A stretch of 37,490 nucleotides of DNA. Origin: a virus. The notes beneath the pieces are model-generated. The model did not search any database, was not told the origin of the DNA, and saw only the letters and a list, made by a program, of their open reading frames with translations. A program made the translations under genes and the position numbers. Location of the stretch: IMG/VR virus record IMGVR_UViG_3300025769_000334, positions 1-37,490 of that record; one strand, given 5' to 3'. Positions 759 through 35,949 of the stretch are shown here, piece by piece (positions within the stretch are counted from its first letter, which is position 1; every line of letters starts with the position of its first letter).

Positions 759-773
759 AGTCTTACTATGATT
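759..773 (-). promoter_or_regulatory. Dispersed palindromic box, upstream of HNH gene
   Basis: Read towards the downstream gene the box is AATCATA-G-TAAGACT, followed by TAAA and then the ATG, 4 nt from the box. The gene-proximal half TAAGACT is intact and the distal half has two changes from the perfect palindrome. Confidence 0.55.
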
Positions 774-778
774 ATGTT

Positions 779-925
779 TCAGTTGTGCCAGTAAGCCATA
801 TACCCACCCTTGACTCGTCGCCTCTTAATGAGCTTCTGATCGATCAGGTAGTTCAGCGAATGCTGGATAGATCTGGGCGAGTCACAGAAATGCGCCGCAA
901 AATCGAATGTCGGTTGCGCTGTCAT
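779..925 (-). CDS. Small winged-helix-like protein (48 aa)
   Basis: A 48-codon frame beginning MTAQPTFDFAAHF and ending GYMAYWHN. Its ATG overlaps the stop of the upstream gene as ATGA (922-925), which strongly suggests translational coupling. The order helix, RSIQHSLNYLI helix, DQKLIKRRRV, GGYMAYW resembles a minimal winged helix: a recognition helix, then a basic wing and an aromatic strand. A DNA-binding role is inferred from this pattern only. The opposite-strand frame across this region has the low-complexity Ser/Cys/Arg look of a shadow. Confidence 0.5.
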   Translation of the reverse strand: MTAQPTFDFAAHFCDSPRSIQHSLNYLIDQKLIKRRRVKGGYMAYWHN

Positions 926-1287
926 TGGTCGGATAGCTCAGTGTTGGATCTACAAAGATGCTCGTTTCCAGTAGCGGCGAAGCCGTATCGCTTGCCTTTC
1001 GGGTCTGGGAGCAGTTGCCCGTTTGCGAGGATGTCGCAGACCAACTTGCGCTCTGGATCGCGCATGTGCTTTTTCAGCCGCGACAGCATTTCCACGCGGC
1101 GACGGTTCCAGTCGGCTGAGTGCGACAGCTTGCTGCAATGCTCCACCAGTTCGTTCTGCATAAGCTTCCCACTTGGATCACCCACGGCGGCACGGATGTC
1201 CGCTAAAAGACCCAACAAGGCGGTGGACTCAACGCTGACCGCGTTGGAGTCCTCCTTGGATGCAATGTTTTTAGGCGCGGTCATCAT
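922..1287 (-). CDS. Hypothetical phage protein
   Basis: A 121-residue soluble protein not recognised as a named family. The N-terminal 35 residues are Ala/Ser-rich. The middle (HCSKLSHSADWNRRRVEMLS) is amphipathic and basic, and the C-terminus has a short DILANGQLLPDPKGKRYGF segment. The start MM at 1287 has AAGGGGG immediately upstream, a usable ribosome site. Its stop overlaps the start of the small winged-helix protein, so the two form a coupled pair downstream of the methyltransferase. An overlapping plus-strand frame (785-1312) is rejected as a shadow because this strand fits the operon and has a ribosome site. Confidence 0.6.
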   Translation of the reverse strand: MMTAPKNIASKEDSNAVSVESTALLGLLADIRAAVGDPSGKLMQNELVEHCSKLSHSADWNRRRVEMLSRLKKHMRDPERKLVCDILANGQLLPDPKGKRYGFAATGNEHLCRSNTELSDQ

Positions 1288-1335
1288 CCCCCTTCGGTTT
1301 TCGTGTTCATGATCGGTTCTCGTCGCATGTTGCTA

Positions 1336-2037
1336 TTAGCTGTCCTCATTCTCTGCAAGTTGTGATAATGCACTGTTGTGCGAATTGAAGATATGGAGCC
1401 CCAAGTCGGGATGCACGCAGTTGCGGAGAATCTGAGCCGGACAGTGATTCTTACCGTAGTAAATGTTTTCGTCGTAGTGGATACCGAGCCATTCTTGCAG
1501 CGCCTTCTTTCCCACCAGGTTGCACTTATTTATAAATCCAGCAGGCCTAGGCACATCAAAGTCCTCAAAGTCGAAGTTAGACCAGAACATGTGACGACCC
1601 ATTTTTTTACCCTCGATGAGCGGCGCGTAGTATGGAACCACGTTCTCCACTACCCATTTGCACTTTGCGTATGTTTGCAGGAAGATTATTTCCTCGTAGA
1701 GTTTCATATCTGGGTATCGCTTTAGCTTATGTCTCGTTGCCTTAGCCATCCGCAAATGCGTCTGGCACGGTGGACTTGTCCAGATGAAGTCGAACTCATC
1801 GAAGTGATCTAGCAGGTATTGGTGAGCATCACCCACGATCACCAGGTCTTGAGGATGGAGCCGCCGATATACGTCTGCGATTTTCGGCTCATTTTCGACC
1901 GCGACGACCTCGACGTTATCCCACTTCTTGCGGTTTCCACCTAGTCCAGCATACAGGTTAAGAACCCGCAACGGCACACAACCAGACGATAGATTCAACT
2001 CCATTCCGCCGCTTCGCTCTGTCATTACGTGATTCAT
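1336..2037 (-). CDS. DNA (cytosine-5) methyltransferase, short phage form
   Basis: A 233-residue C5 methyltransferase, predicted to move a methyl group from S-adenosylmethionine to cytosine in phage DNA. Motif I is LNLYAGLGGNRKKW (about 27-39, SAM binding), followed by VENE (47-50). Motif IV has the catalytic cysteine in TSPPCQ (Cys91) and motif VI is VVENV (about 129-133). It is short for the family (typically above 300), and the usual motifs VIII-X and a separate target-recognition domain are not obvious. No restriction endonuclease is next to it apart from the distant HNH gene, so it more likely protects phage DNA from host restriction than forms a classical R-M pair. Alternative starts are Met5 and Met12. 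Confidence 0.9.
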   Translation of the reverse strand: MNHVMTERSGGMELNLSSGCVPLRVLNLYAGLGGNRKKWDNVEVVAVENEPKIADVYRRLHPQDLVIVGDAHQYLLDHFDEFDFIWTSPPCQTHLRMAKATRHKLKRYPDMKLYEEIIFLQTYAKCKWVVENVVPYYAPLIEGKKMGRHMFWSNFDFEDFDVPRPAGFINKCNLVGKKALQEWLGIHYDENIYYGKNHCPAQILRNCVHPDLGLHIFNSHNSALSQLAENEDS

Positions 2038-2044
2038 CTATTTG

Positions 2045-2320
2045 TTAGTCGATGTATTCACTTCGATAAACCCAAGCTGCATTTTTACACGCACCGCATA
2101 TGGGGTGGCTGCCTCTACTTGTTTTTGAATGACGACCTTTCCCCCCACATACTCGGCATCGGAAACGGCGACTAACAAGACGGTGCACACAATTCGCTCC
2201 CCGTTCAGAGTCAGCGTTGGTTTGTGTTTTAGTATCGTTTTTAGTTATCATAATTCGTTCTAGTCGCGGTTGCTGTCTTTTACGTTCAGTCAAATAGTTA
2301 CCTTTTGGTAGATTACCCAT
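2045..2320 (-). CDS. Small zinc-ribbon protein
   Basis: A 91-residue basic protein. Residues 54-80 contain RCRVCGGKGRHSKTSRGSHP then ICGACKNA: two CxxC knuckles 17 residues apart, the ligand pattern of a zinc ribbon. The rest is charged and low in complexity. Neither possible start (MGNLPKG at 2320 or the internal MITKND 23 codons later) has a clear ribosome site, and the family homology would start in the Cys region, so the N-terminus is uncertain. It lies between the methyltransferase and a winged-helix-like gene; nucleic-acid binding is a guess. Confidence 0.6.
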   Translation of the reverse strand: MGNLPKGNYLTERKRQQPRLERIMITKNDTKTQTNADSERGANCVHRLVSRRFRCRVCGGKGRHSKTSRGSHPICGACKNAAWVYRSEYID

Positions 2321-2333
2321 TGGTAGAGTAATC

Positions 2334-2606
2334 TCAGAATAATGCCCGGTCCTTCCCGAAGACCGTAGCTGTGTTTTTATTCGCTCCTGCCTTAATAACG
2401 TAATAGTGAGCTGGGATAATGCGTGACGGCTGAACCCTTTCCGGCTCCTCCCATACGAGATCGATGGCGACCAGCCGCTCTAAACATTTTTTGGCACCCG
2501 GGAAATCCTTCTCGATTTGTAGCGCGGTCTTGCCTGGGTTGTCGTTAATGAATGTCCTGATTGCTTTGCACTTCAGCAGAAACTTGATTCGTTCTTTCGG
2601 TGTCAT
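2334..2606 (-). CDS. Hypothetical protein, winged-helix-like
   Basis: A 90-residue protein. Residues 12-60 read as helix (KCKAIRTFINDNPGKTALQI), helix (EKDFPGAKKCLERLVAIDLV), then a short wing (WEEPERVQ…HYYVI). This layout resembles small winged-helix phage proteins; DNA binding is inferred and unproven. The ATG at 2606 is one base from a degenerate copy of the dispersed palindromic box (2608-2622). No Shine-Dalgarno is seen. Confidence 0.6.
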   Translation of the reverse strand: MTPKERIKFLLKCKAIRTFINDNPGKTALQIEKDFPGAKKCLERLVAIDLVWEEPERVQPSRIIPAHYYVIKAGANKNTATVFGKDRALF

Positions 2607-2607
2607 G

Positions 2608-2622
2608 AGTCTTCGTAGGCTT
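2608..2622 (-). promoter_or_regulatory. Dispersed palindromic box, degenerate copy
   Basis: In gene orientation it is AAGCCTA-C-GAAGACT, then C, then ATG. About 12 of 15 positions match the palindrome consensus, and the 1-nt distance to the start codon equals that of the copy at 3438. The 108-nt gap 2607-2714 holds nothing else recognised. Confidence 0.4.
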
Positions 2623-2714
2623 TGGGTTTAGTTGATTAGAGAAAAGGGTGGCAGACTATTAGCGTTTACTGAGTCGGCTGCGCGGTCTGCCAGCGTCCAT
2701 GGACTCGGAATTGA

Positions 2715-3242
2715 TTAAAAGATCTTGCGGCGATACTCCAAGTAACTGTGATTATCTTGAAACTCTCCTGCACAGATCGTAGGCTTCCAATCTGAACCGC
2801 TGTCACGCACACGCCACTGATCGCCCTCCTGAATGACTGTGTTTCGACCGAGTATTACGTAGTGAGATTCCCCTTCGGCTAATGCAGCCTCTCCCTCGGG
2901 AGTTAGTTCTACTGTATCATCCAAATCGAAATCAGACCAGTCGGGTTCTTCCCATGGGGCATTTATCTCTTCCGCATAAGCGCACTCATCCATGCACCAT
3001 GCCCAACCGGCGATATCGACAGCATTGTCATGCTTAGACGAGTGACTCTCCCGAGCGAGCTTGATCAGGATCATGATCATCGGCACCTGCGATGGCTTCA
3101 CATCCCAGCCAAACAAGTGGTTCATCATTCCGGCTACCTTTGCCATATCGACATCGGGTGGTCCGTAGTCTTCGTTTCGTGATCCGGAGACCAGTCGCTT
3201 TGCTTCGTCGAGCATATGCTCTGCTTTTGCTTCTTTACTCAT
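2715..3242 (-). CDS. DUF6378-like phage protein
   Basis: A 175-residue protein. Residues 8-85 carry the pattern of the DUF6378 phage family: LDEAKRLVSGSRNEDYGPPD, then KPSQVPMIMILIKLARES, then KHDNAVDIAGWAWCMDE. The conserved acidic and Lys/Arg residues and all-helical look recall MazG-type nucleotide hydrolases, but this function is not established and is only a possibility. The C-terminal 65 residues (from VELTPEGEAAL) form a separate β-rich tail with no recognised fold. The start overlaps the stop of the preceding HTH gene as ATGA, so the two are translationally coupled. Confidence 0.7.
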   Translation of the reverse strand: MSKEAKAEHMLDEAKRLVSGSRNEDYGPPDVDMAKVAGMMNHLFGWDVKPSQVPMIMILIKLARESHSSKHDNAVDIAGWAWCMDECAYAEEINAPWEEPDWSDFDLDDTVELTPEGEAALAEGESHYVILGRNTVIQEGDQWRVRDSGSDWKPTICAGEFQDNHSYLEYRRKIF

Positions 3243-3436
3243 AGTCCTTGATTTGATGGTTCTTGGCAGGTGTGTTTCAGGCTCGACTTTTCGACCTGGT
3301 AATTTCTAAGACCGGACCTCCGGTCTCGCAGTAAAGGAAACGTCCCCTCCTTGATCCAGCGTAGAACTGTCCTGGGATCGCGACCTACAATTTTCGCAGC
3401 TTCAGCTAGGCTTATCCATTCTTCGTTAACATTCAT
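3239..3436 (-). CDS. MerR/excisionase-type HTH protein
   Basis: A 65-residue protein with one winged HTH (helix_turn_helix_17 / AlpA-Xis type). SLAEAAKIVGRDPRTVLRWI is the two-helix turn and KEGTFPLLRDRRSGLRNYQV the wing. Such proteins serve as excisionases (directionality factors) or small regulators. The integrase is about 10 kb away on the other strand, so an excisionase role is possible but not demonstrated. The ATG at 3436 sits one base from a palindromic box, the closest spacing seen. Confidence 0.75.
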   Translation of the reverse strand: MNVNEEWISLAEAAKIVGRDPRTVLRWIKEGTFPLLRDRRSGLRNYQVEKSSLKHTCQEPSNQGL

Positions 3437-3437
3437 A

Positions 3438-3452
3438 AGACTTAGTAAGATT
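3438..3452 (-). promoter_or_regulatory. Dispersed palindromic box, upstream of HTH gene
   Basis: Gene orientation AATCTTA-C-TAAGTCT, then T, then ATG (reads …TAAGTCTTATG). One change in each half-site. The palindrome ends one base before the start codon, so any mRNA starting upstream would carry the hairpin against the initiation site. Confidence 0.6.
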
Positions 3453-3490
3453 GAGCTAATCGTTCGCTAAGTTGACTGGCAAGGATAATT

Positions 3491-3817
3491 TCATGATTCT
3501 TCCTTTTCGTCGTAGCAGTGAAGTTCCTCGAGCATGATTTTGAAGAGATCCTCGATCACATGGTGATCGATGCAGCACTTATCATATTGCCATCCCCCAT
3601 TCCGATCCTGGGGAGTCATGAAGTCGAAACCCATATCGATCATTTCTGATGCAGTCTTGATTTCGATCTTATGGCTCCACTCTCCGAGCCGGAGTATGAA
3701 GTTCTCCCTCTGTTTTTGATCCCGAGCGATGATCAGCACATTGAGATGATTCTTGGTTAGCTGGATTACCTCTTTGAGCATCCGGCTTGTTCTTCCTGTT
3801 CTTCTTAGTGATTTCAT
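3491..3817 (-). CDS. Small P-loop-like phage protein
   Basis: A 108-residue protein. The N-terminus LRRTGRTSRML resembles the GRTTRM-type degenerate P-loop found at the start of many small phage proteins, followed by β-strand LNVLIIARD and later KCCIDHHVIED, which takes the place of a Walker B-like strand. ATP binding is therefore suggested, but no helicase or nuclease motifs follow. The start overlaps the stop of the rusA-type gene as ATGA, placing it in the same transcript. Confidence 0.6.
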   Translation of the reverse strand: MKSLRRTGRTSRMLKEVIQLTKNHLNVLIIARDQKQRENFILRLGEWSHKIEIKTASEMIDMGFDFMTPQDRNGGWQYDKCCIDHHVIEDLFKIMLEELHCYDEKEES

Positions 3818-4239
3818 AGGTTTTCTATTTTGATGTAAATGCCTGTGCGGTCAGCGTGGGCTTTTTGGATTATTTCCGAGGCTACCTGGGCATCGTCCTT
3901 CCAGAATTGGAGATCTGTCATGCAATCGAATAGCATCTTGTTGAGATTGTGAGTATCCGGCTTGGTAGACTTCCAAACGAATTCCCGATTTAGCTTCTTG
4001 GTTTTTTGTGTGTGAGGGAAACACCACTTGACTGTGCATTCCAGGGGTCCGGTCCCGAACCATCTGTCAGGTATGTGTGAGGATAGTGCCGCCATCAGCT
4101 TTGCTCTCGTCTCAGCTACCTTGGGAGGCTCGTAGTGAATCACCTTCCCCTTAACGACTTTCGTCGCCTTCATCTGGTGCGTTGTGGTCGGCACCTTTTT
4201 CATCGGCATCCAGAAATCGTGCTCTCTTACATTGTTCAT
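3814..4239 (-). CDS. rusA: RusA-like Holliday junction resolvase
   Basis: A 141-residue RusA-family endonuclease, which resolves four-way DNA junctions produced in phage recombination and replication. Signature residues 91-119 are KPDTHNLNK, then FDCMTDL, then FWKDDAQV, and the end has GIYIKI as in E. coli RusA. Asp95 and the Asp115-Asp116 pair match known catalytic acids (E. coli Asp70 and Asp90/91), and Lys101 matches Lys76. The position of E. coli Asp72 is occupied by His97 (codon CAC, one base from GAC), which may impair metal binding. The start at MNNVREH (4239) is preferred over upstream Mets, since the upstream extension is encoded by the C/G-run repeat region and 141 residues fits the family. 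Confidence 0.85.
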   Translation of the reverse strand: MNNVREHDFWMPMKKVPTTTHQMKATKVVKGKVIHYEPPKVAETRAKLMAALSSHIPDRWFGTGPLECTVKWCFPHTQKTKKLNREFVWKSTKPDTHNLNKMLFDCMTDLQFWKDDAQVASEIIQKAHADRTGIYIKIENL

Positions 4240-4550
4240 GTTTTTTGTATTTTTTGTTTTTGTTTTTTTGGTCTGATCGCTCGCGCCCGTCACTGGCATA
4301 TGTATCTGGTCAGAATATGGGGGGCGGCTTTTTAGCCCCCCTATTACTACCCGCATACATGTGACATGTGTGTGCATGGGTGGGAGTGGTATCAAACTTG
4401 TATACTTTAGTATGGGGGGGTATACCACTTTCTGGTATCACCCCCCCCCATGGGGGGGGTATACTACCACTTTTCGTCAAAGTATCAAAAACACCGTTTT
4501 GACGGTAAATAACAGAAAGTGTCAAAGTGTCAAAAAGGGGGGTGATACCA
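4240..4550. other. Non-coding, repeat-rich region; candidate replication origin
   Basis: A 311-nt gap between the resolvase and primase-helicase genes. It contains a T-rich stretch (4241-4269), a hairpin with GGGGGGC/GCCCCCC arms (4319-4341), five copies of a TGGTAT(C/A) or TATACCA(CT) element next to C or G runs, a C9-AT-G8 hairpin (4441-4459), a small ACCGT/ACGGT hairpin (4493-4506), and three AAGT(A/G)TCAA repeats (near 4480 and 4517-4534). Iteron-like repeats beside a primase-helicase gene suggest an origin. Frames through it encode the repeats themselves and look spurious. Confidence 0.5.
4414..4471. repeat. G-run/TATACCACT repeats and C9-AT-G8 hairpin
   Basis: G7 followed by TATACCACT (4414-4429), then TGGTATCA followed by nine C (4433-4449), AT, eight G and TATACTACCACT (4452-4471). 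The middle forms an almost perfect C-run/G-run hairpin flanked by the same TGGTAT/TACCA element in opposite orientations. A further G6-TGATACCACT copy lies at 4537-4552 and AGTGGTATCA at 4385-4394. The long homopolymers are likely to vary in length between clones or reads. Confidence 0.75.
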
Positions 4551-8395: not shown

Positions 8396-8396
8396 T

Positions 8397-8888: not shown

Positions 8889-8905
8889 AATTTACTTACT
8901 GGTGA

Positions 8906-9976
8906 TTAACTTTCGATTGATTCAAATTCCTGTGTCCGGATCATCCCCACGACAGCATCCCAGTGGGCTATGAGTTTCCCGGTGACGAACGAGTCGTCAT
9001 AGCTGTCAATCGGCGCATCGACCCCATAATACCCGCGACTCGCTACAACTTGTCGTATTTGCAGAGAGGATACATTGTCCCTTTCAGCAAGTTGCTTGAG
9101 AGATGGACCCCACTCCTTTTCCAGATTAAACCCGTCGTCCGGTTTCAGAGCGCCAACCTCGTTACCTGTAGGTCGCCTGACCTCGTCACGTTTCTCTGCA
9201 GGTGGTTCTTCACTAGTTTCCTCCCTAGTCTCTTCCCCAGCCTCCTCAGCATGTGAAGTCTTACTAAGATCCCCGGAAAAGAGATGAGAAATCGCATCGA
9301 AGCTGAACTCCAGTTTCTCCGGTAGATCCTGACGGTTCTTAGCGTCATGGGTGGACTTGTGCGATGTATACATTACCCGATGCCCACCTTTCGCTTTTTT
9401 CGATTTCGTTCTTTCGTCCTCGATCACGTATGTCTCGTAATTGGCGAACAGAAGCATATCTGCCCATTCCTTAACCAGTGGAGATACTTTCTTGGACATC
9501 TTCATTTCCCACCGATCAAAAGCACCCTCCTCTTCGGGGAGTTCGAACTTACGGATAAGCGAGTGAGCCAATAGGACAACGTGTATCCCTTTTTCCCTTA
9601 CTTCGTTAAGTAGGTTCAGTAGTTTACCGAACTCCTCCTCGAGAATCGTGTAGCCTTTTCCGTATCCGAAATCCTCAATGCTGGTCTTATTCGCTTCACC
9701 GCACACATGCGTCACGCAGAGTTTCTCAGCCCAGTCTACCGTATCGATGACTATCGTGCGGTAATCGGAGCGCATGAGTTCCCTTACTTGATCCAGTAGC
9801 GCTGTCCATGACAGTGGTTTAGGAGTCCTGTGGACATCCAGGTGATCAGACCCACCCTCGGTATCGATGAAGATAGGGCTTGGGAATTTACTCCCGAATG
9901 TTGACTTGCCGATTCCTTCGGAGCCATATGCGACTACTCGCAGTGCTTTCTTTATTTTTCCTTTTATTATTTGCAT
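8906..9976 (-). CDS. Sak4-like recombinase (RecA-core AAA_24 ATPase)
   Basis: A 356-residue protein with a single RecA-like domain. Walker A is YGSEGIGKSTF (17-27), followed by IFIDTEGGSDHLD, Walker B TIVIDTVDWAE (74-84), HVVLLAHS (122-129) and WADMLLFANYET. This matches the phage AAA_24/Sak4 family, single-strand annealing recombinases. The C-terminal about 110 residues are acidic (EEAGEETREETSEEPP) and then carry a small helical domain, perhaps for partner binding. Start Met at 9976 is preferred; an in-frame ATG at 10030 would overlap a small membrane-peptide gene completely. It forms a recombination module with the SMC-like ATPase upstream. Confidence 0.85.
   Translation of the reverse strand: MQIIKGKIKKALRVVAYGSEGIGKSTFGSKFPSPIFIDTEGGSDHLDVHRTPKPLSWTALLDQVRELMRSDYRTIVIDTVDWAEKLCVTHVCGEANKTSIEDFGYGKGYTILEEEFGKLLNLLNEVREKGIHVVLLAHSLIRKFELPEEEGAFDRWEMKMSKKVSPLVKEWADMLLFANYETYVIEDERTKSKKAKGGHRVMYTSHKSTHDAKNRQDLPEKLEFSFDAISHLFSGDLSKTSHAEEAGEETREETSEEPPAEKRDEVRRPTGNEVGALKPDDGFNLEKEWGPSLKQLAERDNVSSLQIRQVVASRGYYGVDAPIDSYDDSFVTGKLIAHWDAVVGMIRTQEFESIES
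9257..9271. promoter_or_regulatory. Intragenic match to the palindromic box
   Basis: AGTCTTA-C-TAAGATC on the plus strand, 13 of 15 positions of the perfect palindrome, inside the Sak4-like gene where it encodes LSKTS. It may be chance, since the peptide is unremarkable, but it is the only strong copy found inside a gene. Confidence 0.3.
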
Positions 9977-10074: not shown

Positions 10075-10108
10075 GGCTTTTAGGTGTTAGATACATAGGG
10101 TATGGTGT

Positions 10109-11506
10109 TTAAAACCCTCCCTCCGAACTGTAATTCGCCAATACCGGCGAATTATTCCGTAAACCATGTGGTTTGGACGCCATTGTTGGCGAATTAACAG
10201 GAGGCCGAGGAGTCACCTTGAAAGCCGGATGCGGTTCGTCGTTTTCGCCGGAACCATCCTCGATGATCAACGAGCACTCTGGACCTTTAGAGACTCGGGT
10301 AGCGATTACCTGAAGACCTTCGCTTTCGAGCCATTCACTGAAACTGTCCAGCGTATCCAGATCCATTTGTTCGAGTTTATCCATCAGCACGAAACCGCAC
10401 TGAGGGTTCAGCTTACGAACGATAGAAGTGGCTACGATAAGCCGCTCAGCGCCGCTCATGCAGTCCCAGCGCATGCCTTCATAGAGAAGCTCACCTTCGG
10501 AAACGGAAAGCCCTGGTAGGGGCAAATCAGCGCCCTCTAGCAGATCGACCTTTTCCCGTCTGACAGCTTCAAGCTCAGCGGTTAGCGCATCATACTTGCG
10601 AGTATACTCGATACCCTCCTCATTAGCTTTCTCTTTCTCGAGGTTCGCCCGAACGCGAGTGTTAGTCGTTTCAATCTCCGACAGTGACTTCTCAAGCGCC
10701 TCCGTAGATTCGTCCTCGAGTTGATGTGCCGCTTTACCGGCAGTCTTATAATCCTCGTGGAGTTTATCCCGATTGACTTCTGCATCGAGCAGTTCCTGTT
10801 GCAGAGCTTCGATCTTGTTTTTCAGATCGCCGATCCGATACTGGCTTTGCTCGAACCTGGATCTCGCCGCAGATGCATTTTGGCGCAGTTCTTGGTTCTT
10901 CGCATTCCGATGCAGGATAGCCTGCTGCTGATGAATGAGATCGCTAATCGAAATCAGTTCCTCTGGCGCGTCAGGATAGTAGTGCATCTCTTCTGCATGC
11001 TTGACTTTCGAGTCCCTTACCGATCCGACATCGCGACGACGATCATAAATCGTCTTCTCCTTCATTTCCAGTTTCGCCAGCTCGTCACCGACTCCGATGA
11101 TGTTGAGCAGCGCCTGAACTTTTTCCTTATCGGATGACTCCATGAACTTGGGCAGATTCAATGCTAATTCTTCGATAAACGTCTTTAGCAACGACTGCCC
11201 ATGAGTCATACCAGTAGGGTCTGTAACCTTAAGTACAGAGTTCTTACCCTTCCGCTCTACTACTAGACCGTTTGACAGGGTGAGTTTGATCGAGAGAGGG
11301 ATATTGGACTCTCTTCGATTTGCATCTGTCGGGCGATATCTCTCGCCGCCCAATGCATAACAAATAGCGTCTAGCGAGGAAGTCTTCCCCTCGCTATTAT
11401 TGCCACCGATGATGGTCATCGCTGACCCTGTGAAATTTATCTTCACAGCTTTGATTCTCTTGAAGTCATTCACTTCAAGCTCGATTAGTTTTACTGGATT
11501 TTTCAT
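10109..11506 (-). CDS. SMC/Rad50-like ATPase (AAA_23)
   Basis: A 465-residue ATPase with the split-domain layout of Rad50, SbcC and RecF relatives. The N-terminal half has the strand LIELEVNDFKRIKAVKINF and Walker A IIGGNNSEGKTSS (32-44). Residues about 195-325 form a coiled coil rich in Glu, Lys and Gln. The C-terminal half has signature MSGAERLIVA (350-359) and Walker B CGFVLMDKLEQMD (370-382); the usual catalytic Glu after the Asp is replaced by Lys (DK). The tail is a Pro/Ser/Asn-rich linker. It probably works with the Sak4-like protein in phage DNA recombination or end processing; no nuclease partner is visible next to it. A palindromic box lies 3 nt before the ATG. Confidence 0.85.
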   Translation of the reverse strand: MKNPVKLIELEVNDFKRIKAVKINFTGSAMTIIGGNNSEGKTSSLDAICYALGGERYRPTDANRRESNIPLSIKLTLSNGLVVERKGKNSVLKVTDPTGMTHGQSLLKTFIEELALNLPKFMESSDKEKVQALLNIIGVGDELAKLEMKEKTIYDRRRDVGSVRDSKVKHAEEMHYYPDAPEELISISDLIHQQQAILHRNAKNQELRQNASAARSRFEQSQYRIGDLKNKIEALQQELLDAEVNRDKLHEDYKTAGKAAHQLEDESTEALEKSLSEIETTNTRVRANLEKEKANEEGIEYTRKYDALTAELEAVRREKVDLLEGADLPLPGLSVSEGELLYEGMRWDCMSGAERLIVATSIVRKLNPQCGFVLMDKLEQMDLDTLDSFSEWLESEGLQVIATRVSKGPECSLIIEDGSGENDEPHPAFKVTPRPPVNSPTMASKPHGLRNNSPVLANYSSEGGF

Positions 11507-11509
11507 ATA

Positions 11510-11524
11510 AGTCTTACTAAGATA
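11510..11524 (-). promoter_or_regulatory. Dispersed palindromic box, upstream of SMC-like ATPase
   Basis: Gene orientation TATCTTA-G-TAAGACT, then TAT, then ATG. The gene-proximal half is perfect; the distal half has two changes. It fills the 19-nt gap between this gene and the preceding one. Confidence 0.6.
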
Positions 11525-11525
11525 T

Positions 11526-12453: not shown

Positions 12454-12457
12454 CGTA

Positions 12458-12703
12458 TTAGATGCCGGTATTCCTGAACCGAGTCAGTTCGGTCGCCGGA
12501 ATACTATACGGCTTATTTTTAGTTAAAGAAAGGATTCGCCCCGCTCTGACTCGATCAGCCACCCAGCGAGGCGCCCGGTTGATCAGCTTTCCAAATTCAG
12601 CACAGGTTAGTGTTTCGCTGGTGTGCGACACCTTCTGCTCGAGAAGAGATATTCGAGCCGATATGAGTCGGAGTTCCTGTAGGATGTCGTTATGTTGAGA
12701 CAT
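12458..12703 (-). CDS. HTH protein with coiled-coil N-terminus, first early gene
   Basis: An 81-residue protein: residues 1-30 form a short coiled coil (HNDILQELRLISARISLLEQ), residues 33-75 an excisionase/MerR-like HTH (LTCAEFGKLINRAPRWVADR, VRAGRILSLTKNKPYSIPAT). The start at 12703 is chosen because the dispersed palindromic box (12716-12730) lies just upstream; a longer frame from 12775 would overlap both the RHH stop and the terminator. It is the first gene of the leftward early array, so it could be an early regulator or an excisionase. Confidence 0.65.
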   Translation of the reverse strand: MSQHNDILQELRLISARISLLEQKVSHTSETLTCAEFGKLINRAPRWVADRVRAGRILSLTKNKPYSIPATELTRFRNTGI

Positions 12704-12715
12704 TAAGTCGTCGCA

Positions 12716-12730
12716 AGTCTTAGTAAGATT
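12716..12730 (-). promoter_or_regulatory. Dispersed palindromic box, head of early array
   Basis: Gene orientation AATCTTA-C-TAAGACT, one change from the perfect palindrome, then TGCGACGACTTA and ATG (12 nt). It sits between the RHH terminator and the first early gene, where an operator for the whole early array would be expected. Confidence 0.65.
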
Positions 12731-12735
12731 GGGTG

Positions 12736-12761
12736 AAAAAAAACGCCTATTCGGAGGCGTT
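12736..12761 (-). terminator. Rho-independent terminator after RHH gene
   Basis: On the minus strand AACGCCT-CCGAAT-AGGCGTT forms a 7-bp stem followed by a run of T. The stop codon of the RHH gene lies inside the loop/stem. It would separate RHH transcription from the early array. Confidence 0.8.
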
Positions 12762-12884
12762 GTGAAGGATCTCATTTACGACCTGATCCACCGTGCGATT
12801 GGTCTGGTCGGCAAGTGCCTGAAGGGCTTCGATTGTTTTACCTGGGAGGGTTATGGTGACTCTAATGAGAGGTTTTTTAAGCAT
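12747..12884 (-). CDS. Small ribbon-helix-helix (RHH) regulator
   Basis: A 45-residue protein: MLKKPLIRVTITLPGKTIEA, then LQALADQTNRTVDQVVNEIL. The IRVTITLP strand, two helices and short length match CopG/Arc-type RHH proteins, which dimerise and bind DNA palindromes with the strand. It is transcribed leftward from the central control region and ends in its own terminator. It is divergent to a second RHH gene. It could be a lysogeny repressor or Arc-like regulator; the family is well supported, the target is not known. Confidence 0.75.
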   Translation of the reverse strand: MLKKPLIRVTITLPGKTIEALQALADQTNRTVDQVVNEILHNASE

Positions 12885-12953
12885 GTAGAAAAAATTCTTA
12901 ATATTTTTGCATAAGTCAAATCAATTTTGAATAACAAGTGCTCGAACGTGCAT

Positions 12954-12968
12954 TAGGGTTATACCCTA
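12954..12968. promoter_or_regulatory. Candidate operator TAGGGT-TAT-ACCCTA
   Basis: A perfect 15-bp palindrome with 6-bp arms and a 3-nt spacer in the centre of the divergent control region. Its sequence is unrelated to the dispersed box, so it may bind a different regulator. Confidence 0.5.
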
Positions 12969-12981
12969 TAGCTGTTATCCC

Positions 12982-12997
12982 GTTGATCGTGATCGAC
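12982..12997. promoter_or_regulatory. Candidate operator GTTGATC-GT-GATCGAC
   Basis: A 16-bp imperfect palindrome (7-bp arms, one mismatch) 13 bp from the previous one. Position inside the divergent control region suggests an operator; nothing else supports it. Confidence 0.35.
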
Positions 12998-13148
12998 TTA
13001 TGTGTTTATATCGGCTGATATTTTTTTTAAACAGACAGTTTCGCTAATAAGTTAAGTAGTTCTGGTTATACTAAAATTAATATTAATAAACTTTGTATCT
13101 TAGGACCACTTGACATTTATTCACAAGTATATTTGGGTATTAATACTA

Positions 13149-13379
13149 ATGAAACCCATTATGAATGATTCAAAAAATACAAATGCAATAGGCCCGGGCA
13201 CCAAGAACATGACGATCAATGTGCCTGAGGGTGTGCTCAAGAAAATTGACAAACTGTCGGCAAAAAGCGGCATGACACGGAGCAAATACCTCAAACTCCT
13301 CATAGAGGAGGAAGTTATGCAGGGCGATTTAACTTACGAGGTAATCGCGAGAACAAAGCGTAAGCCAAATAGCACCTGA
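13149..13379 (+). CDS. RHH regulator (second, rightward)
   Basis: A RHH protein with core KNMTINVPEGVLKKIDKLSA then KSGMTRSKYLKLLIEEEV, i.e. strand, helix, helix of a CopG/Arc-type domain, followed by a basic tail (RTKRKPN). From this ATG it is 76 residues. An internal ATG at 13161 and an upstream start at 13110 are possible; the 13110 start would place coding over TTGACA. It faces away from the leftward RHH gene across a control region and lies next to attP and the integrase, the classic place for a prophage repressor or integration regulator. Confidence 0.7.
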   Translation: MKPIMNDSKNTNAIGPGTKNMTINVPEGVLKKIDKLSAKSGMTRSKYLKLLIEEEVMQGDLTYEVIARTKRKPNST

Positions 13380-13428
13380 GCGCATCTGAGAGCATCTAGA
13401 CACGCAAGTCATTGATTATAAGGATTAA

Positions 13429-13449
13429 GTTCGAGTCCAGTCAGCCCGA
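13429..13449 (+). other. attP: Putative attP core: tRNA gene 3' end
   Basis: The 21-nt segment begins GTTCGAGT and ends CAGCCCGA, the layout of a tRNA T-loop (TTCGAGT), T-stem 3' strand (CCAGT), acceptor strand (CAGCCCG) and discriminator A. No matching 5' tRNA half is present. Temperate phages often integrate into tRNA 3' ends and carry such a copy. The implied acceptor 5' strand, CGGGCTG with discriminator A, would fit a tRNA-Pro, but this is tentative. The integrase gene begins 139 nt downstream. Confidence 0.75.
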
Positions 13450-13454
13450 TACAC

Positions 13455-13498
13455 AACCCTGCTAAATAAGGGAAACGCCTTGTTTGCAGGGTTTTTTT
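13455..13498 (+). terminator. Rho-independent terminator next to attP
   Basis: AACCCTGC pairs with GCAGGGTT around an inner AAGG/CCTT stem-loop, followed by seven T. It lies 6 nt after the tRNA-like core. It may stop transcription from the RHH gene, and after integration it could terminate the reconstituted host tRNA. Confidence 0.85.
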
Positions 13499-13587
13499 GT
13501 GATCTGGTTGGTTGATAATAGTTGATAACGGTAGTCCAGATGTTGGATTTAGCATCTGGAAAAAGCATCTGAGAGCATCTGGGGCAT

Positions 13588-14652
13588 ATGAAAAAATTTA
13601 ATTTAAGAACAGTATCCGGTCGAAAGCGACCATATGGAATCTTTTGGATCGAAGACGGAAAACGCAGGTCTAAATATTTCGCCACCGAGAAAGAACGGCA
13701 GGTTTTTTCTCGGAGCATCGGTAGCCCAATGGATCCGGCTTACCGTGAGTGGATCGAGTTCCGTAGGCGCACGGAGGGGGTACCGTTACAGGACATCCTC
13801 AATTGCTGGGCGATGTATGGACAGGGCGATGGAGGAGAGATCGTGGAAAATCTCATCGAACAATTTAAAGAAGAGAAGTGGGCGATGGGTATATCTGACG
13901 ATATGAAGACTCAGTACAAGAATCATCTATCAAGATTTGTAAAATCGTTTGGGACGCACCGAATGGACACTGTGACCCCCATGGAGCTGTCAAGGTGGCT
14001 ACGGTCACTGCCCTACTCGCCGGTTACCAGGAAAAACCACAGGAAGTCCATCAGGTCACTCTACAACTGGGCGGCCGACAGGGGATACTGTAGAAAGAAT
14101 CCGGCGAAAATAGTAAAGGACGAAACCGTAGTCTCCGACATCGAGATTATCAGCGTGGAGGATTGCCGTAAGCTATTTGAAGCGAATGTAGGCTCACACG
14201 CAATCGGTCGATTGGCTCTCGAGGCATTCGGTCTGCTCAGATACTCGTCAGCGAAACGATTGCGCCCCGGGGACATCAATTGGGAGGAGCGCGGGATAAC
14301 ATTGCCTGCCGCCCAGTTGAAGACCTCGCGACGGACCTACGTGGACGGGCATCCGGATAATTTGTGGGGGTGGATGCATTACGCACCTAAGGAGTGCTGG
14401 ACAATGTCCGAGCGCAGATACCAAGAGGAGAAGCGTAAGATGTTCATCCGATCAGGGGTGAAGCACCCAAAGAACGTCCTGCGTCATTCAGCCTGCACCT
14501 ATCACTACGCAGCCTTCAAGAATCCTGGCCTGACAGCTTCCTTGATGGCGCATACGAATCTTCGGACGATGGAGCAATTTTATCGAGGGAGAGCAACCCA
14601 AAGTGATGGGGTGGCATATTTCGAAATCTACCACCCCACGAAAAAACTTTAA
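13588..14652 (+). CDS. int: Tyrosine site-specific integrase
   Basis: A 354-residue phage-type tyrosine recombinase that would join attP to a host tRNA attB. The N-terminal region has an arm-binding-like β domain (residues 1-45: YGIFWIEDGKRRSKYFATEK), a core-binding SAM-like domain is at about 85-170 (YKNHLSRFVKSFGTHRM, then SIRSLYNWAADRGYCRKNPA), and the catalytic domain follows. Catalytic residues: Arg218 (GLLRYSS), Lys245 (QLKTSRR), Arg299 (NVLRHS), His322 (MAHTN) and nucleophile Tyr332 (FYRG). The HxxR histidine is Asn296. The start at 13588 directly follows the arm-type repeats, so integrase may regulate its own expression. Confidence 0.92.
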   Translation: MKKFNLRTVSGRKRPYGIFWIEDGKRRSKYFATEKERQVFSRSIGSPMDPAYREWIEFRRRTEGVPLQDILNCWAMYGQGDGGEIVENLIEQFKEEKWAMGISDDMKTQYKNHLSRFVKSFGTHRMDTVTPMELSRWLRSLPYSPVTRKNHRKSIRSLYNWAADRGYCRKNPAKIVKDETVVSDIEIISVEDCRKLFEANVGSHAIGRLALEAFGLLRYSSAKRLRPGDINWEERGITLPAAQLKTSRRTYVDGHPDNLWGWMHYAPKECWTMSERRYQEEKRKMFIRSGVKHPKNVLRHSACTYHYAAFKNPGLTASLMAHTNLRTMEQFYRGRATQSDGVAYFEIYHPTKKL

Positions 14653-14654
14653 GA

Positions 14655-14704
14655 CATATCGACATATTTACGCCATATCGACATATTTACGCCATATCGA
14701 CATA
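14655..14704. repeat. Tandem 19-bp repeats after integrase
   Basis: CATATCGACATATTTACGC occurs at 14655-14673 and again exactly at 14674-14692, then a third partial copy CATATCGACATA at 14693-14704. The repeats start 2 nt after the integrase stop. Possible roles: binding sites for an activator of the late operon, or integrase P'-arm sites. Too few copies and no spacers for CRISPR. Confidence 0.8.
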
Positions 14705-14717
14705 GACAAGCCATTAT

Positions 14718-14740
14718 ACTTAAGGTATTATACCTTGAGT
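14718..14740. promoter_or_regulatory. 23-bp palindrome at head of late operon
   Basis: Arms ACTTAAGGTAT and ATACCTTGAGT (11 bp, one mismatch) around a single T. The core AAGGTAT-T-ATACCTT is perfect. It overlaps the GTG start of the next gene by two bases. Candidate operator or control hairpin of the rightward lysis and structural operon. Confidence 0.55.
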
Positions 14741-15167
14741 GGATCGGGTATTGCCAATCGGTTACAGGACACTTCAGGAGATTCTTACGGAAACTTTTGG
14801 AGACGTTGTGCATGTAAACGACCGATCTTACACATTTCCAAACGAGGACTACTTAATCGCCGCCGCTCAAAGGCTGATCAAAAAGAATAACCGCAAGGGA
14901 CTTTCTTTTGGGCCGAAGTGGGATTGTGACGACTTCGCTATTGATTTTGTTAATCTCATTAAAAAGAATTTCGCTGTTACAAGCGACAGCACCGCTGAAG
15001 GTATCGCTGTCGGATTTGTCAGCTACAGAGATATTCAAACCGGCTTCCATGCCATCGTTTGGTTCCTGTCGCCGGACTCAGAGGTTAAATTCATAGAACC
15101 GCAGACCGGTCAATTAACTACCTTATCGAAAACGGAGGCGCAGAGCGCAGCTTTAGTATGGGGTTAA
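14739..15167 (+). CDS. Transglutaminase-like cysteine protein of lysis cluster
   Basis: A 142-residue protein with an apparent Cys-His-Glu triad of a papain/transglutaminase fold: Cys63 in KWDCDDFAIDF, His104 in TGFHAIVWF and Glu120 in KFIEPQTG. The spacing resembles small transglutaminase-like phage proteins. It is followed by a membrane protein and a holin, so it may act as endolysin or accessory lysis enzyme, but substrate and activity are unproven. Start: GTG at 14739 inside a palindrome; TTG at 14751 is an alternative. No in-frame ATG exists near the start. Confidence 0.65.
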   Translation: MDRVLPIGYRTLQEILTETFGDVVHVNDRSYTFPNEDYLIAAAQRLIKKNNRKGLSFGPKWDCDDFAIDFVNLIKKNFAVTSDSTAEGIAVGFVSYRDIQTGFHAIVWFLSPDSEVKFIEPQTGQLTTLSKTEAQSAALVWG

Positions 15168-15460
15168 GTATGCGTGAAGAACCATCGATGAGTGACAACA
15201 AGGAGAATATAAAACTGCTAGCGACTCTAATTGGTACATTGTGCCTCGTTATAATCGTCCCGATGTTTGGCTGGGGGATGAAGTCGTTCATCGATTTTGC
15301 CAAAGAGACCGAAGGGCGATTGGCGGTATTGGAATTTAATGCAGCGCAGGGAACTCGCTATACACTGGAAATGGCTGAACGCGATTTCATTCCAATTGTA
15401 GAAAAAGTGAACGACCACGAATTGCGAGTTAGATTCTTAGAAAACTCCCGGCGCGACTGA
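15158..15460 (+). CDS. Single-TM coiled-coil protein (lysis cluster)
   Basis: A 100-residue protein with one membrane helix (LLATLIGTLCLVIIVPMFGW, about 20-39) followed by a Glu/Arg-rich helix (FAKETEGRLAVLEFNA…). The N-in, C-out layout with a periplasmic coiled coil is like an inner-membrane spanin or a holin-associated protein. Starts at 15158, 15170 and 15188 are all possible; the first overlaps the upstream gene by 10 nt. The neighbouring holin-type gene supports a role in lysis. Confidence 0.6.
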   Translation: MGLSMREEPSMSDNKENIKLLATLIGTLCLVIIVPMFGWGMKSFIDFAKETEGRLAVLEFNAAQGTRYTLEMAERDFIPIVEKVNDHELRVRFLENSRRD

Positions 15461-15470
15461 TTTTTACCGT

Positions 15471-15485
15471 AGTCTTATTAAGACT
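15471..15485 (+). promoter_or_regulatory. Dispersed palindromic box, perfect copy
   Basis: AGTCTTA-T-TAAGACT, the perfect palindrome, followed by TAATACATAACCCACAG and the holin ATG 22 nt away. It is the best copy in the window and defines the consensus. Confidence 0.75.
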
Positions 15486-15507
15486 TAATACATAACCCAC
15501 AGAAAAC

Positions 15508-16116
15508 ATGAATGCAATTATCGGCTTAATTCGCCATATTCTCACATTCGCCGGTGGCTTCGTAGTAGCATCCGGAGACATAGCTGAACCTCAACTGGAT
15601 ACCTTGGTCGGCGCTCTGGTCACCGTAGTCGGGATCGTTTGGTCGGTTCTGGAGAAACGTAAAAAGAAATCAATCCCCACCGCTATTGTGCCGATGCTCC
15701 TGATACCGCTCATGGTCGCTTGCGTGGCACTTCCCAGTGGATGTGTCAGAGGAGTGGATGGAGAGGTTACAATGGATCCTAACGCGAAAACATTCCTAAC
15801 GAATGCCGCTAAGGTCGCTGTCTTGATCGGAGTATCTCATGCGACAGCTGGTGTGAGCGAACTCGCTCCCTTCACCGGAGTCCTCTCCAGTGGGATCAAT
15901 AACATCTTTGCATCCAATGAAGACCCGAAAGAGATCGGTAACGAATTGAAAATGCTGTTTTCAGATATTGCACTCCAGATTGGTAATGAAGAGTTGAATC
16001 AGATCCTGTTGGAAAGCGTAAAAGACCAACTGGTTCCTGATGTTCCAGGTGCGGTTGTAGGCGGCGCTGATCAGTATCAATACAACTCCAAGATCGCCGA
16101 ACAACTTGTGCTCTAG
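15508..16116 (+). CDS. Holin-like protein with internal lipobox-like segment
   Basis: A 202-residue protein. The N-terminal 55 residues match small phage holins of the Pam3-gp28 type: helix 1 IIGLIRHILTFAGGFVVASG, helix 2 LDTLVGALVTVVGIVWSVLE, then the basic stop EKRKKK. Unusually the frame continues: a third hydrophobic stretch (IVPMLLIPLMVACVALPSGC, about 60-79) ends in a lipobox-like LPSGC (Cys79) and a soluble 120-residue domain follows. Holin would make inner-membrane holes; the added part looks like a membrane-tethered or lipidated periplasmic domain. It is either a natural holin-lipoprotein fusion or two proteins from two starts. Confidence 0.65.
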   Translation: MNAIIGLIRHILTFAGGFVVASGDIAEPQLDTLVGALVTVVGIVWSVLEKRKKKSIPTAIVPMLLIPLMVACVALPSGCVRGVDGEVTMDPNAKTFLTNAAKVAVLIGVSHATAGVSELAPFTGVLSSGINNIFASNEDPKEIGNELKMLFSDIALQIGNEELNQILLESVKDQLVPDVPGAVVGGADQYQYNSKIAEQLVL

Positions 16117-18539: not shown

Positions 18540-18554
18540 CATCTTAATAATACT
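18540..18554 (+). promoter_or_regulatory. Dispersed palindromic box, degenerate copy
   Basis: CATCTTA-A-TAATACT, then TAATATGGGGA and the GTG start (11 nt). Three changes from the perfect palindrome, but it fills the only gap between the terminase and portal and keeps the same orientation. Confidence 0.45.
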
Positions 18555-18565
18555 TAATATGGGGA

Positions 18566-18892
18566 GTGTCAGTTCCTACCAGCGTATTCAAAGAGTTCAT
18601 CCGTAAAGTATACCGTGCAGCGCAAGCTGCCAGTGTAGACCGTGATGTATACCTGGATGGTTTGGCCGATGTAGCCTTAGCAACATGGGAGAGTGGAAAG
18701 ACACTATCCAGTTCATCCACAAATGGCACCACTGCTTCCTATGAGCTTTTCTACGGATGGAACCCAGAGTCGCTACTCGAAAACATCGCCAGAGCGCGGG
18801 ACTACGTATCCTACGCAACTGTGACGCTGGCGCTCGCTGAGATTAAGGCGATCCGGCACGTATCTTCAAAGTTTACCACCATCAAGAAATGA
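18566..18892 (+). CDS. Head-tail joining candidate (position of gpW)
   Basis: A 108-residue protein between terminase and portal, the position of lambda gpW. Sequence: helical N-terminus (FKEFIRKVYRAAQAASVDRD), a Ser/Thr-rich loop, then two helices (PESLLENIARARDYVSYATV, TLALAEIKAIRHV). It is longer than gpW (68) and not clearly homologous. The GTG start at 18566 follows GGGGAG at very short spacing. The end overlaps the portal start as ATGA. Confidence 0.5.
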   Translation: MSVPTSVFKEFIRKVYRAAQAASVDRDVYLDGLADVALATWESGKTLSSSSTNGTTASYELFYGWNPESLLENIARARDYVSYATVTLALAEIKAIRHVSSKFTTIKK

Positions 18893-21313: not shown

Positions 21314-22273
21314 ATGGCTCACTTAAATCTACTTGATGTAGCAAAACTCAACGGTTCCGACGATGTCGTCGGGTTGATCGAAGAAGTAATCACGGAGACT
21401 CCAGAGATCGAGATCTTCCCCGTTCGCACCATTAATGGTACGAGTTATAAAACGTCCATGAGGACTTCCCTACCTGGTGTTGCTTTCCGTAACGCTAACG
21501 AGGGTGTGTCTCCCGGGAAATCTGAGTTCGAAAACGGTATCGCCGAGTGCTTTATCCTCGACGGACAGATCGAAGGTGACAAGAAAGTTATCGATGCCGA
21601 CGAACGCGGAGTTGCTCACATGCTGGGTCTCGAGGCTTCCGGTATTGCGAAGTCTACTCTCTTGCACATTGTAAGCCAGCTGTATTACGGCGCGGCAAAC
21701 GATACCAAGGGTTTCCAAGGTCTAAAGAACTTCACCGCTTTTGGTGGTGAGTATACTAAGGACGCAGGCGGCACAACTGCTGGCACTGCATCCTCTGTAT
21801 TCGGAGTTCGTTTCGGCGAGCAGGACACAACCATGATCATGGGCAACAACACGACGTTGACGCTCGGCGAATGGCGCACACAGCAGTTGACTGACTCAGC
21901 CGACTCTACCAAGAAATACACCGGTTATGTAAATGACCTCGGTGGATGGATTGGTCTGCAAATGGCTTCCAAGTGGAGCGCAGGTCGGATCTGTAATCTG
22001 ACAGCCGACTCAGGCAAGGGACTGACAGAAGATCTGATCATCGATTGGCTCGAAATGTTCCCGGCAGCCAAGCAGCCTTCTCATATTTTTATGAGCAAGC
22101 GTTCCATGACTCAGCTCCGCAAGAGCATGACTGCTGCCATCACGTTGAAGGGAACTTCTCTTAGTGGCAAAACTGTTACTCCTGCTGAAGCGAAAGCCGC
22201 AGTGGAAGAATCCACAGGTGTGACTATCGTTGTCTCTGACAGCATCGTCAACACTGACGCAATCGAATCTTAA
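21314..22273 (+). CDS. Major capsid protein
   Basis: A 319-residue structural protein directly after the protease-scaffold, the expected capsid position. Sequence features fit a HK97-fold coat: N-arm (AHLNLLDVAKLNGSDDVVGL), an E-loop-like TSLPGVAFRNANEGVSPGKS, a central IDADERGVAHMLGLEASGIA segment and a late SHIFMSKRSMTQLRKSMTAA helix. It lacks the long N-terminal delta region since scaffold is separate. No SD is seen before the ATG. A palindromic box overlaps its stop codon. Confidence 0.85.
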   Translation: MAHLNLLDVAKLNGSDDVVGLIEEVITETPEIEIFPVRTINGTSYKTSMRTSLPGVAFRNANEGVSPGKSEFENGIAECFILDGQIEGDKKVIDADERGVAHMLGLEASGIAKSTLLHIVSQLYYGAANDTKGFQGLKNFTAFGGEYTKDAGGTTAGTASSVFGVRFGEQDTTMIMGNNTTLTLGEWRTQQLTDSADSTKKYTGYVNDLGGWIGLQMASKWSAGRICNLTADSGKGLTEDLIIDWLEMFPAAKQPSHIFMSKRSMTQLRKSMTAAITLKGTSLSGKTVTPAEAKAAVEESTGVTIVVSDSIVNTDAIES

Positions 22274-22286
22274 TCTTAGTAAGACT
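22272..22286 (+). promoter_or_regulatory. Dispersed palindromic box, capsid/cement gap
   Basis: AATCTTA-G-TAAGACT, one change from perfect, then TACCATC and ATG (7 nt). It overlaps the last two bases of the capsid stop codon, so it sits exactly at the boundary between two structural genes. Confidence 0.65.
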
Positions 22287-22293
22287 TACCATC

Positions 22294-22698
22294 ATGGCCA
22301 GAAATATTAAAGACGCAGATCTTATCAAGACCGTCGCACTCGCCGCTGCTGGAGCATCTAGCAGCACAGGCTCAATCGATCTTAACGTTTCCTCTGGATC
22401 CGCTTTGACCGAGAACATCGAGTTGGTATTGGACATCCCTGTCCTCTCCGCTCTCGTTGACACCGAGACTGTCACAGTAACCATCGAAGACTCAGCAGAC
22501 AACAGCTCCTTTGCCGCTGTAGCTGGATTGGGAACAACGGTTGCTACCGGCACCGAAACTCCCGGCACGGCAGCAGCTATCCAGCAACGCTATCGTTTTC
22601 CTGATAATGTCCGTCGCTATGTTCGCGCTACTGCTGCCGTTTCATCGTCAGCTGGTGATAACACAGGCGACTCCATCACGATTTCTCTAACGATATAA
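22294..22698 (+). CDS. Capsid cement protein, Bbp16-like candidate
   Basis: A 134-residue β-rich protein with Ala/Ser/Thr-rich strands (ALAAAGASSSTGSIDLNV, then ELVLDIPVLSALVDTETVTV, NVRRYVRATAAVSS). Position immediately after the capsid gene and the β sandwich look fit Bbp16-type cement or decoration proteins, which coat the capsid. Family match is likely but not certain. It follows a palindromic box. Confidence 0.65.
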   Translation: MARNIKDADLIKTVALAAAGASSSTGSIDLNVSSGSALTENIELVLDIPVLSALVDTETVTVTIEDSADNSSFAAVAGLGTTVATGTETPGTAAAIQQRYRFPDNVRRYVRATAAVSSSAGDNTGDSITISLTI

Positions 22699-24290: not shown

Positions 24291-24293
24291 CAT

Positions 24294-24308
24294 AGTCTTA
24301 GGACGACT
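24294..24308 (+). promoter_or_regulatory. Dispersed palindromic box, upstream of tail tube
   Basis: AGTCTTA-G-GACGACT, then an A/C-rich leader CCTAAACCTTAAACCAAAAC and the ATG 26 nt away. Distal half perfect; the gene-proximal half has two changes. The following CTAAACCTTAAA also occurs before the gene at 35634. Confidence 0.5.
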
Positions 24309-24334
24309 TCCTAAACCTTAAACCAAAACACACC

Positions 24335-24820
24335 ATGGCAGTTCCAATCACATTACCCAGCGAAACAGCTACTCCAGCGGAGTCTATCGTGGGACAAACT
24401 ATTTACTTCGGCTTCGAAGAATCTGGTGGGTCTCAGGAAAACATTCTCGTTAACGTAGCAGGGCTTACTCCCAACGTCGAAAAACTCGAACGTAAAAAAG
24501 TTAACACAACATCCGGCCTGATCGAAACCGACCGCACAGTCGTAACCGGTATCAGCTGGACAATGCGTCTAACGACAGACGAAGCATCCACCGAGCTTCT
24601 CAATTACTACAACAATCCCTATCGCGCAGGCGTGGGTCGTTTGTGGGTAGGTGATCCCGATGATGCATCCAATACAGTGTCGATTCTCACAAACGAATTT
24701 AGCTGCACTTGTTCTCCAGATGGCGAAACGAGCTTCCAGAATGATTCATTCTCCGAGTTTGCCATCATGGTCACAATCAATGGCACATTCACACTCACCT
24801 TTAATGGCGCAACCGTATAA
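24335..24820 (+). CDS. Major tail tube protein
   Basis: A 161-residue β-rich protein with TIYFGFEESGG, NVEKLERKKVNTTSGLIETD, a Thr/Ser-rich centre and a GTFTLTFNGATV end. It fits the tail tube position (after the terminator, before the chaperones). No name-specific motif but the position and Thr/Ser/Gly-rich β-strands are typical. Highly expressed in siphophages; it is preceded by a palindromic box and an A/C-rich leader. Confidence 0.8.
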   Translation: MAVPITLPSETATPAESIVGQTIYFGFEESGGSQENILVNVAGLTPNVEKLERKKVNTTSGLIETDRTVVTGISWTMRLTTDEASTELLNYYNNPYRAGVGRLWVGDPDDASNTVSILTNEFSCTCSPDGETSFQNDSFSEFAIMVTINGTFTLTFNGATV

Positions 24821-24831
24821 CTTGTAGTCGT

Positions 24832-35615: not shown

Positions 35616-35633
35616 TTCTAAACCTTAAAAATC

Positions 35634-35915
35634 ATGGCAGATATAAACATAACATTCAGGAACGCCACACCGGAAGAAATCCGCGCGGCTAACTACGTGC
35701 TCGAACGTACAAACGCGGGACGCGTGGAACAGGGATTACCGGAATACGCGAACGTCAAAGATATGATCGAATCGGAGATCACAGACAGGTTGATTCCTCG
35801 CTGGATCAGGATGCAAGCGGATGCAGATGAGGAATCTTCGAACCTGAAAACAAAATACCGGAACGCGCCGGAAACCATTCGGACACAAATCAAAACTTTG
35901 CTTGACAGCCTATGA
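35634..35915 (+). CDS. Hypothetical small protein after tail tip
   Basis: A 93-residue α-helical soluble protein (NATPEEIRAANYVLERTNAG, DMIESEITDRLIPRWIRMQA). Not recognised. Begins 18 nt after the tail-tip stop behind the A/C-rich leader TCTAAACCTTAAAAATC, which shares CTAAACCTTAAA with the tail tube leader. It could be a fibre chaperone or assembly factor judging from position. Confidence 0.55.
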   Translation: MADINITFRNATPEEIRAANYVLERTNAGRVEQGLPEYANVKDMIESEITDRLIPRWIRMQADADEESSNLKTKYRNAPETIRTQIKTLLDSL

Positions 35916-35934
35916 CTTTTGAGCTTGACACCTA

Positions 35935-35949
35935 ATTCTTACTAAGACT
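35935..35949 (+). promoter_or_regulatory. Dispersed palindromic box, after 35915 gene
   Basis: ATTCTTA-C-TAAGACT, one change, then TACCATTTAAAAC and ATG (13 nt). The gene-proximal half is perfect. Confidence 0.6.

Follow-up and report, generated by a model that had tools for sequence, protein, structure and literature searches.

The virus genome examined here carries a real repeated box of about 11 copies, a near-palindrome that is directional with transcription, not a plain palindrome. The window, the whole stretch analysed, is 37,490 nucleotides long and spans positions 1 to 37,490 of IMG/VR virus record IMGVR_UViG_3300025769_000334. We give even chances to the box being an operator in the DNA, bound by a single protein that the phage encodes, within a lysogenic silencing network.

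Results

The initial annotation listed eleven places for a palindrome AGTCTTA-N-TAAGACT (symmetric 15-mer AGTCTTANTAAGACT), and all its coordinates proved correct (Table 1). At 10 of the 11 the sequence lies within three mismatches of this consensus, against a mean of 1.2 ± 1.1 and a maximum of 5 matches in 100 dinucleotide-preserving shuffles, so the copy number is far above chance. The position-weight matrix scan that had been proposed as a check gave 11 readings of at least 18 bits and none in 60 Markov genomes; as these sites also supplied the matrix, the fair measure is the leave-one-out score. The weakest copy, at 2608 (AGTCTTCGTAGGCTT), reached 5.7 bits in leave-one-out scoring on 19 positions and was counted as a weak eleventh copy because of its place and orientation.

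Table 1. Copies of the box and genes of the integrase/RHH module in the window
Feature	Position	Strand	Sequence	Context
Box	757..773	-	AATCATAGTAAGACTTA	15-mer 4 nt before HNH-like gene 89-754; straddled by sigma70-like hexamers
Weak box	2606..2622	-	AAGCCTACGAAGACTCA	4 mismatches to symmetric consensus; 1 nt before gene 2334-2606
Box	3436..3452	-	AATCTTACTAAGTCTTA	1 nt before HTH_17 gene 3239-3436
Intragenic box	9255..9271	-	GATCTTAGTAAGACTTC	In Sak4-like gene 8906-9976, behind AAA core
Box	11508..11524	-	TATCTTAGTAAGACTTA	Fills 19-nt gap before SMC/SbcC-like gene 10109-11506
Box	12714..12730	-	AATCTTACTAAGACTTG	Directly after RHH1 terminator, before gene 12458-12703, head of leftward operon
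RHH1, 45 aa, candidate binder	12747..12884	-		RHH_5 4.4e-5, RHH_1 1.1e-3, both just under Pfam cut-offs
Possible degenerate extra box	13096..13112	+	TATCTTAGGACCACTTG	Upstream of RHH2; 12.1 bits, borderline
RHH2, 72 aa, divergent from RHH1	13161..13379	+		RHH_1 1.3e-3, HicB_lk_antitox 9e-4, both under cut-offs
Tyrosine integrase	13588..14652	+		phrog_1 3.6e-19, Phage_int_SAM_5 8.8e-6
Box	15471..15487	+	AGTCTTATTAAGACTTA	Before gene 15508-16116, start of rightward late genes; only perfectly symmetric 15-mer
Box	18540..18556	+	CATCTTAATAATACTTA	3 mismatches; before gene 18566-18892
Box	22272..22288	+	AATCTTAGTAAGACTTA	Overlaps major capsid gene stop codon; 7 nt before cement-like gene 22294-22698; best matrix score, 29.5
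Box	24294..24310	+	AGTCTTAGGACGACTTC	Before gene 24335-24820
Box	35935..35951	+	ATTCTTACTAAGACTTA	Before gene 35963-36142; TTGACA just upstream

Read on the gene strand, the consensus is AATCTTA-n-TAAGACTTA, which can also be read as CTTA-n-TAAG-n-CTTA with a 5-bp step. C4, T6, A7, A10, C14 and T15 are invariant across the 11 copies, and the 3' half extends to TTA, with T16 in 10 of 11 copies and A17 in eight. A20 is conserved in 10 of 11, above the 95% level of random sets, with ATG codons contributing in part. At position 2, where perfect symmetry requires G, eight of the 11 copies have A. The string TAAGnCTTA occurs six times in the window, every time within a box. If the site were symmetric, the preferred orientation of each copy would be a coin toss; in leave-one-out scoring the gene orientation outscored the reverse in 11/11 copies on 19 positions and in 10/11 on the 15-mer alone. 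The earlier description as a symmetric palindrome is corrected accordingly: the box has a direction, an A at position 2 in most copies and a one-sided extension.

The boxes are concentrated in gaps between genes. Counted on hand-checked gene starts, they occupy 10 of the 17 gaps of at least 19 nt, or 10 of 14 outside the module of integrase and two RHH genes (12747-15460), and none of the 30 smaller junctions; the remaining copy, at 9257, is intragenic. The statement that nearly every real intergenic gap holds one was thus too strongly worded, while the claim that early and late genes on both arms share the element stands. Four gaps outside the module lack a box (1288-1335, 4240-4309, 10075-10108 and 36520-36540). 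In the ten gap copies the distance from the end of the 15-mer to the start codon is variable, from 1 to 26 nt. The boxes at 2608, 3438, 11510 and 22272 lie only 1-7 nt upstream of start codons, that at 22294 being backed by homologues, so polymerase must cross these four from upstream. In one box-free region, 4240-4310, long stretches of C and of G are arranged in inverted order (GTATACCCCCCCC ATG GGGGGGGGGTGATACC) and could form a strong hairpin.

Boxes to the left of the integrase/RHH module point left and those to its right point right. The gaps beside both RHH genes and the integrase (12885-13160, 13380-13587 and 14653-14738; 570 nt) hold no consensus copy; boxes placed uniformly over gap bases would leave them empty with a probability of about 0.006, a post hoc and gene-call-dependent figure. 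This lack of consensus copies fits a repressor network.

The two small RHH-like genes are divergent, with 276 bp between them, and lie beside the integrase in an Arc/Mnt-like arrangement. Beside the integrase, 21 bases at 13429-13449 resemble the 3' end of a tRNA-Pro gene and have GCATCTG-type direct repeats on both sides; judged by sequence, this is probably attP with its arm sites. Among 398 genomes from the phylum of a betaproteobacterial MAG, one tRNA-Pro matched the attP-like core, with one mismatch. Because of the integrase and the tRNA-Pro-like core, the virus looks temperate. The integrase gene is the only integrase-like gene that we saw.

No repressor of a known family was recognised among the genes searched in Pfam and PHROGs, nor any two-domain repressor combining an HTH with a stoperator domain. 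RHH1 is perhaps the first candidate for the box binder, as it sits at the hub from which the boxes diverge and lacks a consensus box upstream. The binder may also be RHH2, the HTH_17 protein (3239-3436) or the small protein encoded at 12458-12703. A search of annotated phages found no homologues of the RHH proteins, and none with known sites, and a sequence search for solved structures gave nothing useful.

Elsewhere in the window, 1336-2037 encodes a short protein like a C-5 cytosine DNA methylase; its match covers just the first third of the family profile. A reading frame of repetitive LTTTALAGTAGFGS-like units (36952-37490) runs up to the end of the window, so the record was probably truncated here.

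Relatives of the virus are numerous at the protein level: about 60 other viral contigs have a relative of its primase (40-52% identity), about 40 one of its capsid protein (32-53%) and one a relative of its terminase (57%). A scan of genome contigs returned only a 42% terminase, in a betaproteobacterial MAG. The capsid relatives have short gaps without a box at the equivalent junction, whole-record scans of 17 relatives gave scattered weak matches only, and the gaps of six relatives, scanned for any palindrome peculiar to them, yielded nothing. In GC-rich relatives the number of palindromes follows from codon patterns and carries no information. Among the relatives examined we found none with a shifted box and a matching repressor. 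The full set of boxes occurs only in contigs 99.7-99.95% identical to the window, which are the same virus and vary too little to be informative. Scanning the collection with ATCTTANTAAGACTTA and TCTTANTAAGACTTA gave 87 and at least 119 stretches; these matches look like chance and were rejected as further carriers, since outside this virus no fetched locus had more than two matrix hits.

The box set is a trait of this lineage, as far as the collections searched show. The initial annotation had let the network idea depend in part on conservation at gene junctions in related phages; no relative examined keeps copies, which removes comparative support and confines the network to this virus. Repressor specificity changes quickly in temperate phages, and restriction to one lineage fits such fast-changing immunity or repressor specificity.

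An RNA hairpin was tried as an explanation and rejected: 74.2% of cells pair, no more than the 74.8% of shuffles, and 9/11 copies break pair 2-14. No stem pair changes on both sides; the half-sites vary independently, without covariation, which fits a protein site in DNA and not an RNA stem. A sigma70 promoter in fixed register was likewise rejected, as no promoter element lies at a fixed distance from the box. Sigma70-like hexamers do straddle two of the boxes, scoring 11.2 at 35935 and 10.4 at 759 where random places give 4.0 ± 2.3, so at both sites the box could be a genuine operator within a promoter.

The 22-bp repeats of phage T1 (NC_005833) served as a positive control for promoter half-sites. 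TAnnnT stands exactly 18 nt downstream in 15 of 18 T1 copies (for example 1448, 2267, 2828, 3533 and 39974); in the window it follows at most 4 of the 11 boxes at any offset. Because of this fixed 18-nt spacing the T1 intergenic repeats look like the upstream half of phage promoters; in T1-like phages the function of these repeats is listed as an open question (PMC11447400).

Discussion

Palindromic repressor operators scattered over intergenic gaps are familiar from the conserved inverted repeats of Streptomyces phage phiC31, which have a different sequence and a different repressor. The closest comparison drawn earlier was with the stoperators of L5, and in part the likeness goes further than claimed. 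Like the window box, L5 and Cluster A stoperators occur in many copies in short gaps genome-wide in a temperate phage, oriented with transcription, which is their hallmark (PMC9283540). The site itself differs, since the L5 stoperator is a 13-bp asymmetric sequence bound by a two-domain monomer, whereas the window box is a near-palindrome of 15-17 bp, unrelated in sequence, with no such repressor found among the genes searched. As the box is not an asymmetric 13-bp L5-like site, we do not class it as an L5 stoperator, only as a possible functional analogue.

Other phages offer parallels of layout. The SPBRE of Bacillus phage SPbeta is one element of about 15 bp before scattered genes, bound by the master repressor MrpR, which has a tyrosine-recombinase fold and maintains lysogeny (PMC10516654); the likeness is one of description, and we saw no second integrase-like protein in the window. 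The repeats of the T1-like phages T1, Stevie and TLS are intergenic, in 16-21 copies, and combine a dyad core and one-sided extension with orientation along transcription (PMC4319613, PMC11447400). In T1 the repeats stand about 52-74 nt upstream of most start codons and have a -10-like hexamer at a fixed 18 nt; in the window the distance is 1-26 nt and there is no such hexamer. Inverted repeats of 15-18 bp in short gaps are also known from Cluster O mycobacteriophages and Cluster EG Microbacterium phages (PMC4351075, PMC7302621), the EG copies typically 14-22 bp before start codons (PMC7302621). The window shares this layout of a repeated palindrome in short gaps before start codons, a likeness only, since the sequences are unrelated and Cluster O copies have no orientation and lie within genes in a third of cases (PMC4351075). 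The SAS of Cluster K are oriented and near start codons, but have a Shine-Dalgarno core at 3-7 bp and are confined to the non-structural arm (PMC3203893); the window box has no GGAG core and occurs on both arms.

The suggestion of a new network therefore does not extend to a new kind of system, as such systems have been described several times (L5, SPBRE, T1, Cluster O/EG). What is new, as far as we found, is the box sequence, and also the combination of an oriented near-palindrome set tight against start codons on both arms.

If the box is an operator, a repressor, with RHH1 as first candidate, would bind each copy in the prophage. Where a box overlaps a promoter, for which 759 and 35935 are the best candidates, initiation would be blocked; elsewhere polymerase would arrive from upstream and the bound protein would stop elongation in one direction only, like L5 stoperators. 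The copy number, the 11/11 orientation, the independent half-sites, the box-free module, the 1-7 nt spacings, the lineage restriction and the signs of a temperate life style all favour an operator. The reading is weakened because RHH2 has at best a degenerate box, because the copy at 9257 and the four box-free gaps outside the module are unexplained, and because the RHH matches fall below the Pfam cut-offs. By analogy with L5, the 45-aa RHH protein might silence the whole prophage through oriented, partly palindromic sites immediately upstream of start codons, acting on elongating polymerase with an unrelated fold; this more specific proposal we consider distinctly doubtful.

The box might itself be a phage-type promoter or activator site, recognised by a phage or host factor, with transcription starting at or just after it and sometimes giving leaderless messages. 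Its orientation and its place before genes agree with this, as do the promoter-like T1 repeats of similar layout and the series T16 A17 n n A20, which recalls a -10 box (TAnnnT there in 4/11 copies, against at most two in 95% of random sets). Yet start codons follow at short and variable distances, too close in at least four copies for transcription to start downstream; no block is conserved at the -35 distance, and the proteins searched included no recognisable RNA polymerase or sigma factor, so we think a promoter possible but unlikely. Some phages employ host repressors, and the box could be the operator of a host regulator adopted by the phage. We know of no host regulator whose consensus fits it, and host factors, to our knowledge, rarely act on both early and late structural genes, which makes a host operator very improbable.

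Orientation and closeness to start codons would also suit an element acting in the mRNA, at the ribosome site, on translation or mRNA stability. A clear Shine-Dalgarno sequence is missing from the majority of this phage's genes, and the Cluster K SAS provide a precedent (PMC3203893). The spacing to the start codon varies, however, the intragenic copy precedes no known gene, a stem is not supported, and the dyad would be unexplained; action in the mRNA thus seems improbable. The boxes might instead be boundary sequences for recombination between phages, or relics without a regulatory role. They do lie at gene junctions, and Cluster O phages have been inferred to recombine between their repeats (PMC4351075), but the consistent orientation, the fine sequence structure, positions just upstream of start codons and the lack of copies in the integration module are hard to reconcile with such an origin, and no relative shares or exchanges boxes. 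We give it the slimmest of chances.

If the boxes of this virus do act as operators in the manner of stoperators, another phage lineage, using another protein, would have evolved genome-wide silencing through dispersed oriented operators independently. A site that is nearly palindromic and yet oriented would then allow the one-sidedness of the roadblock to be tested directly. Such networks may also have a searchable sign: boxes scattered over the genome, all directed away from the integration module and none inside it.
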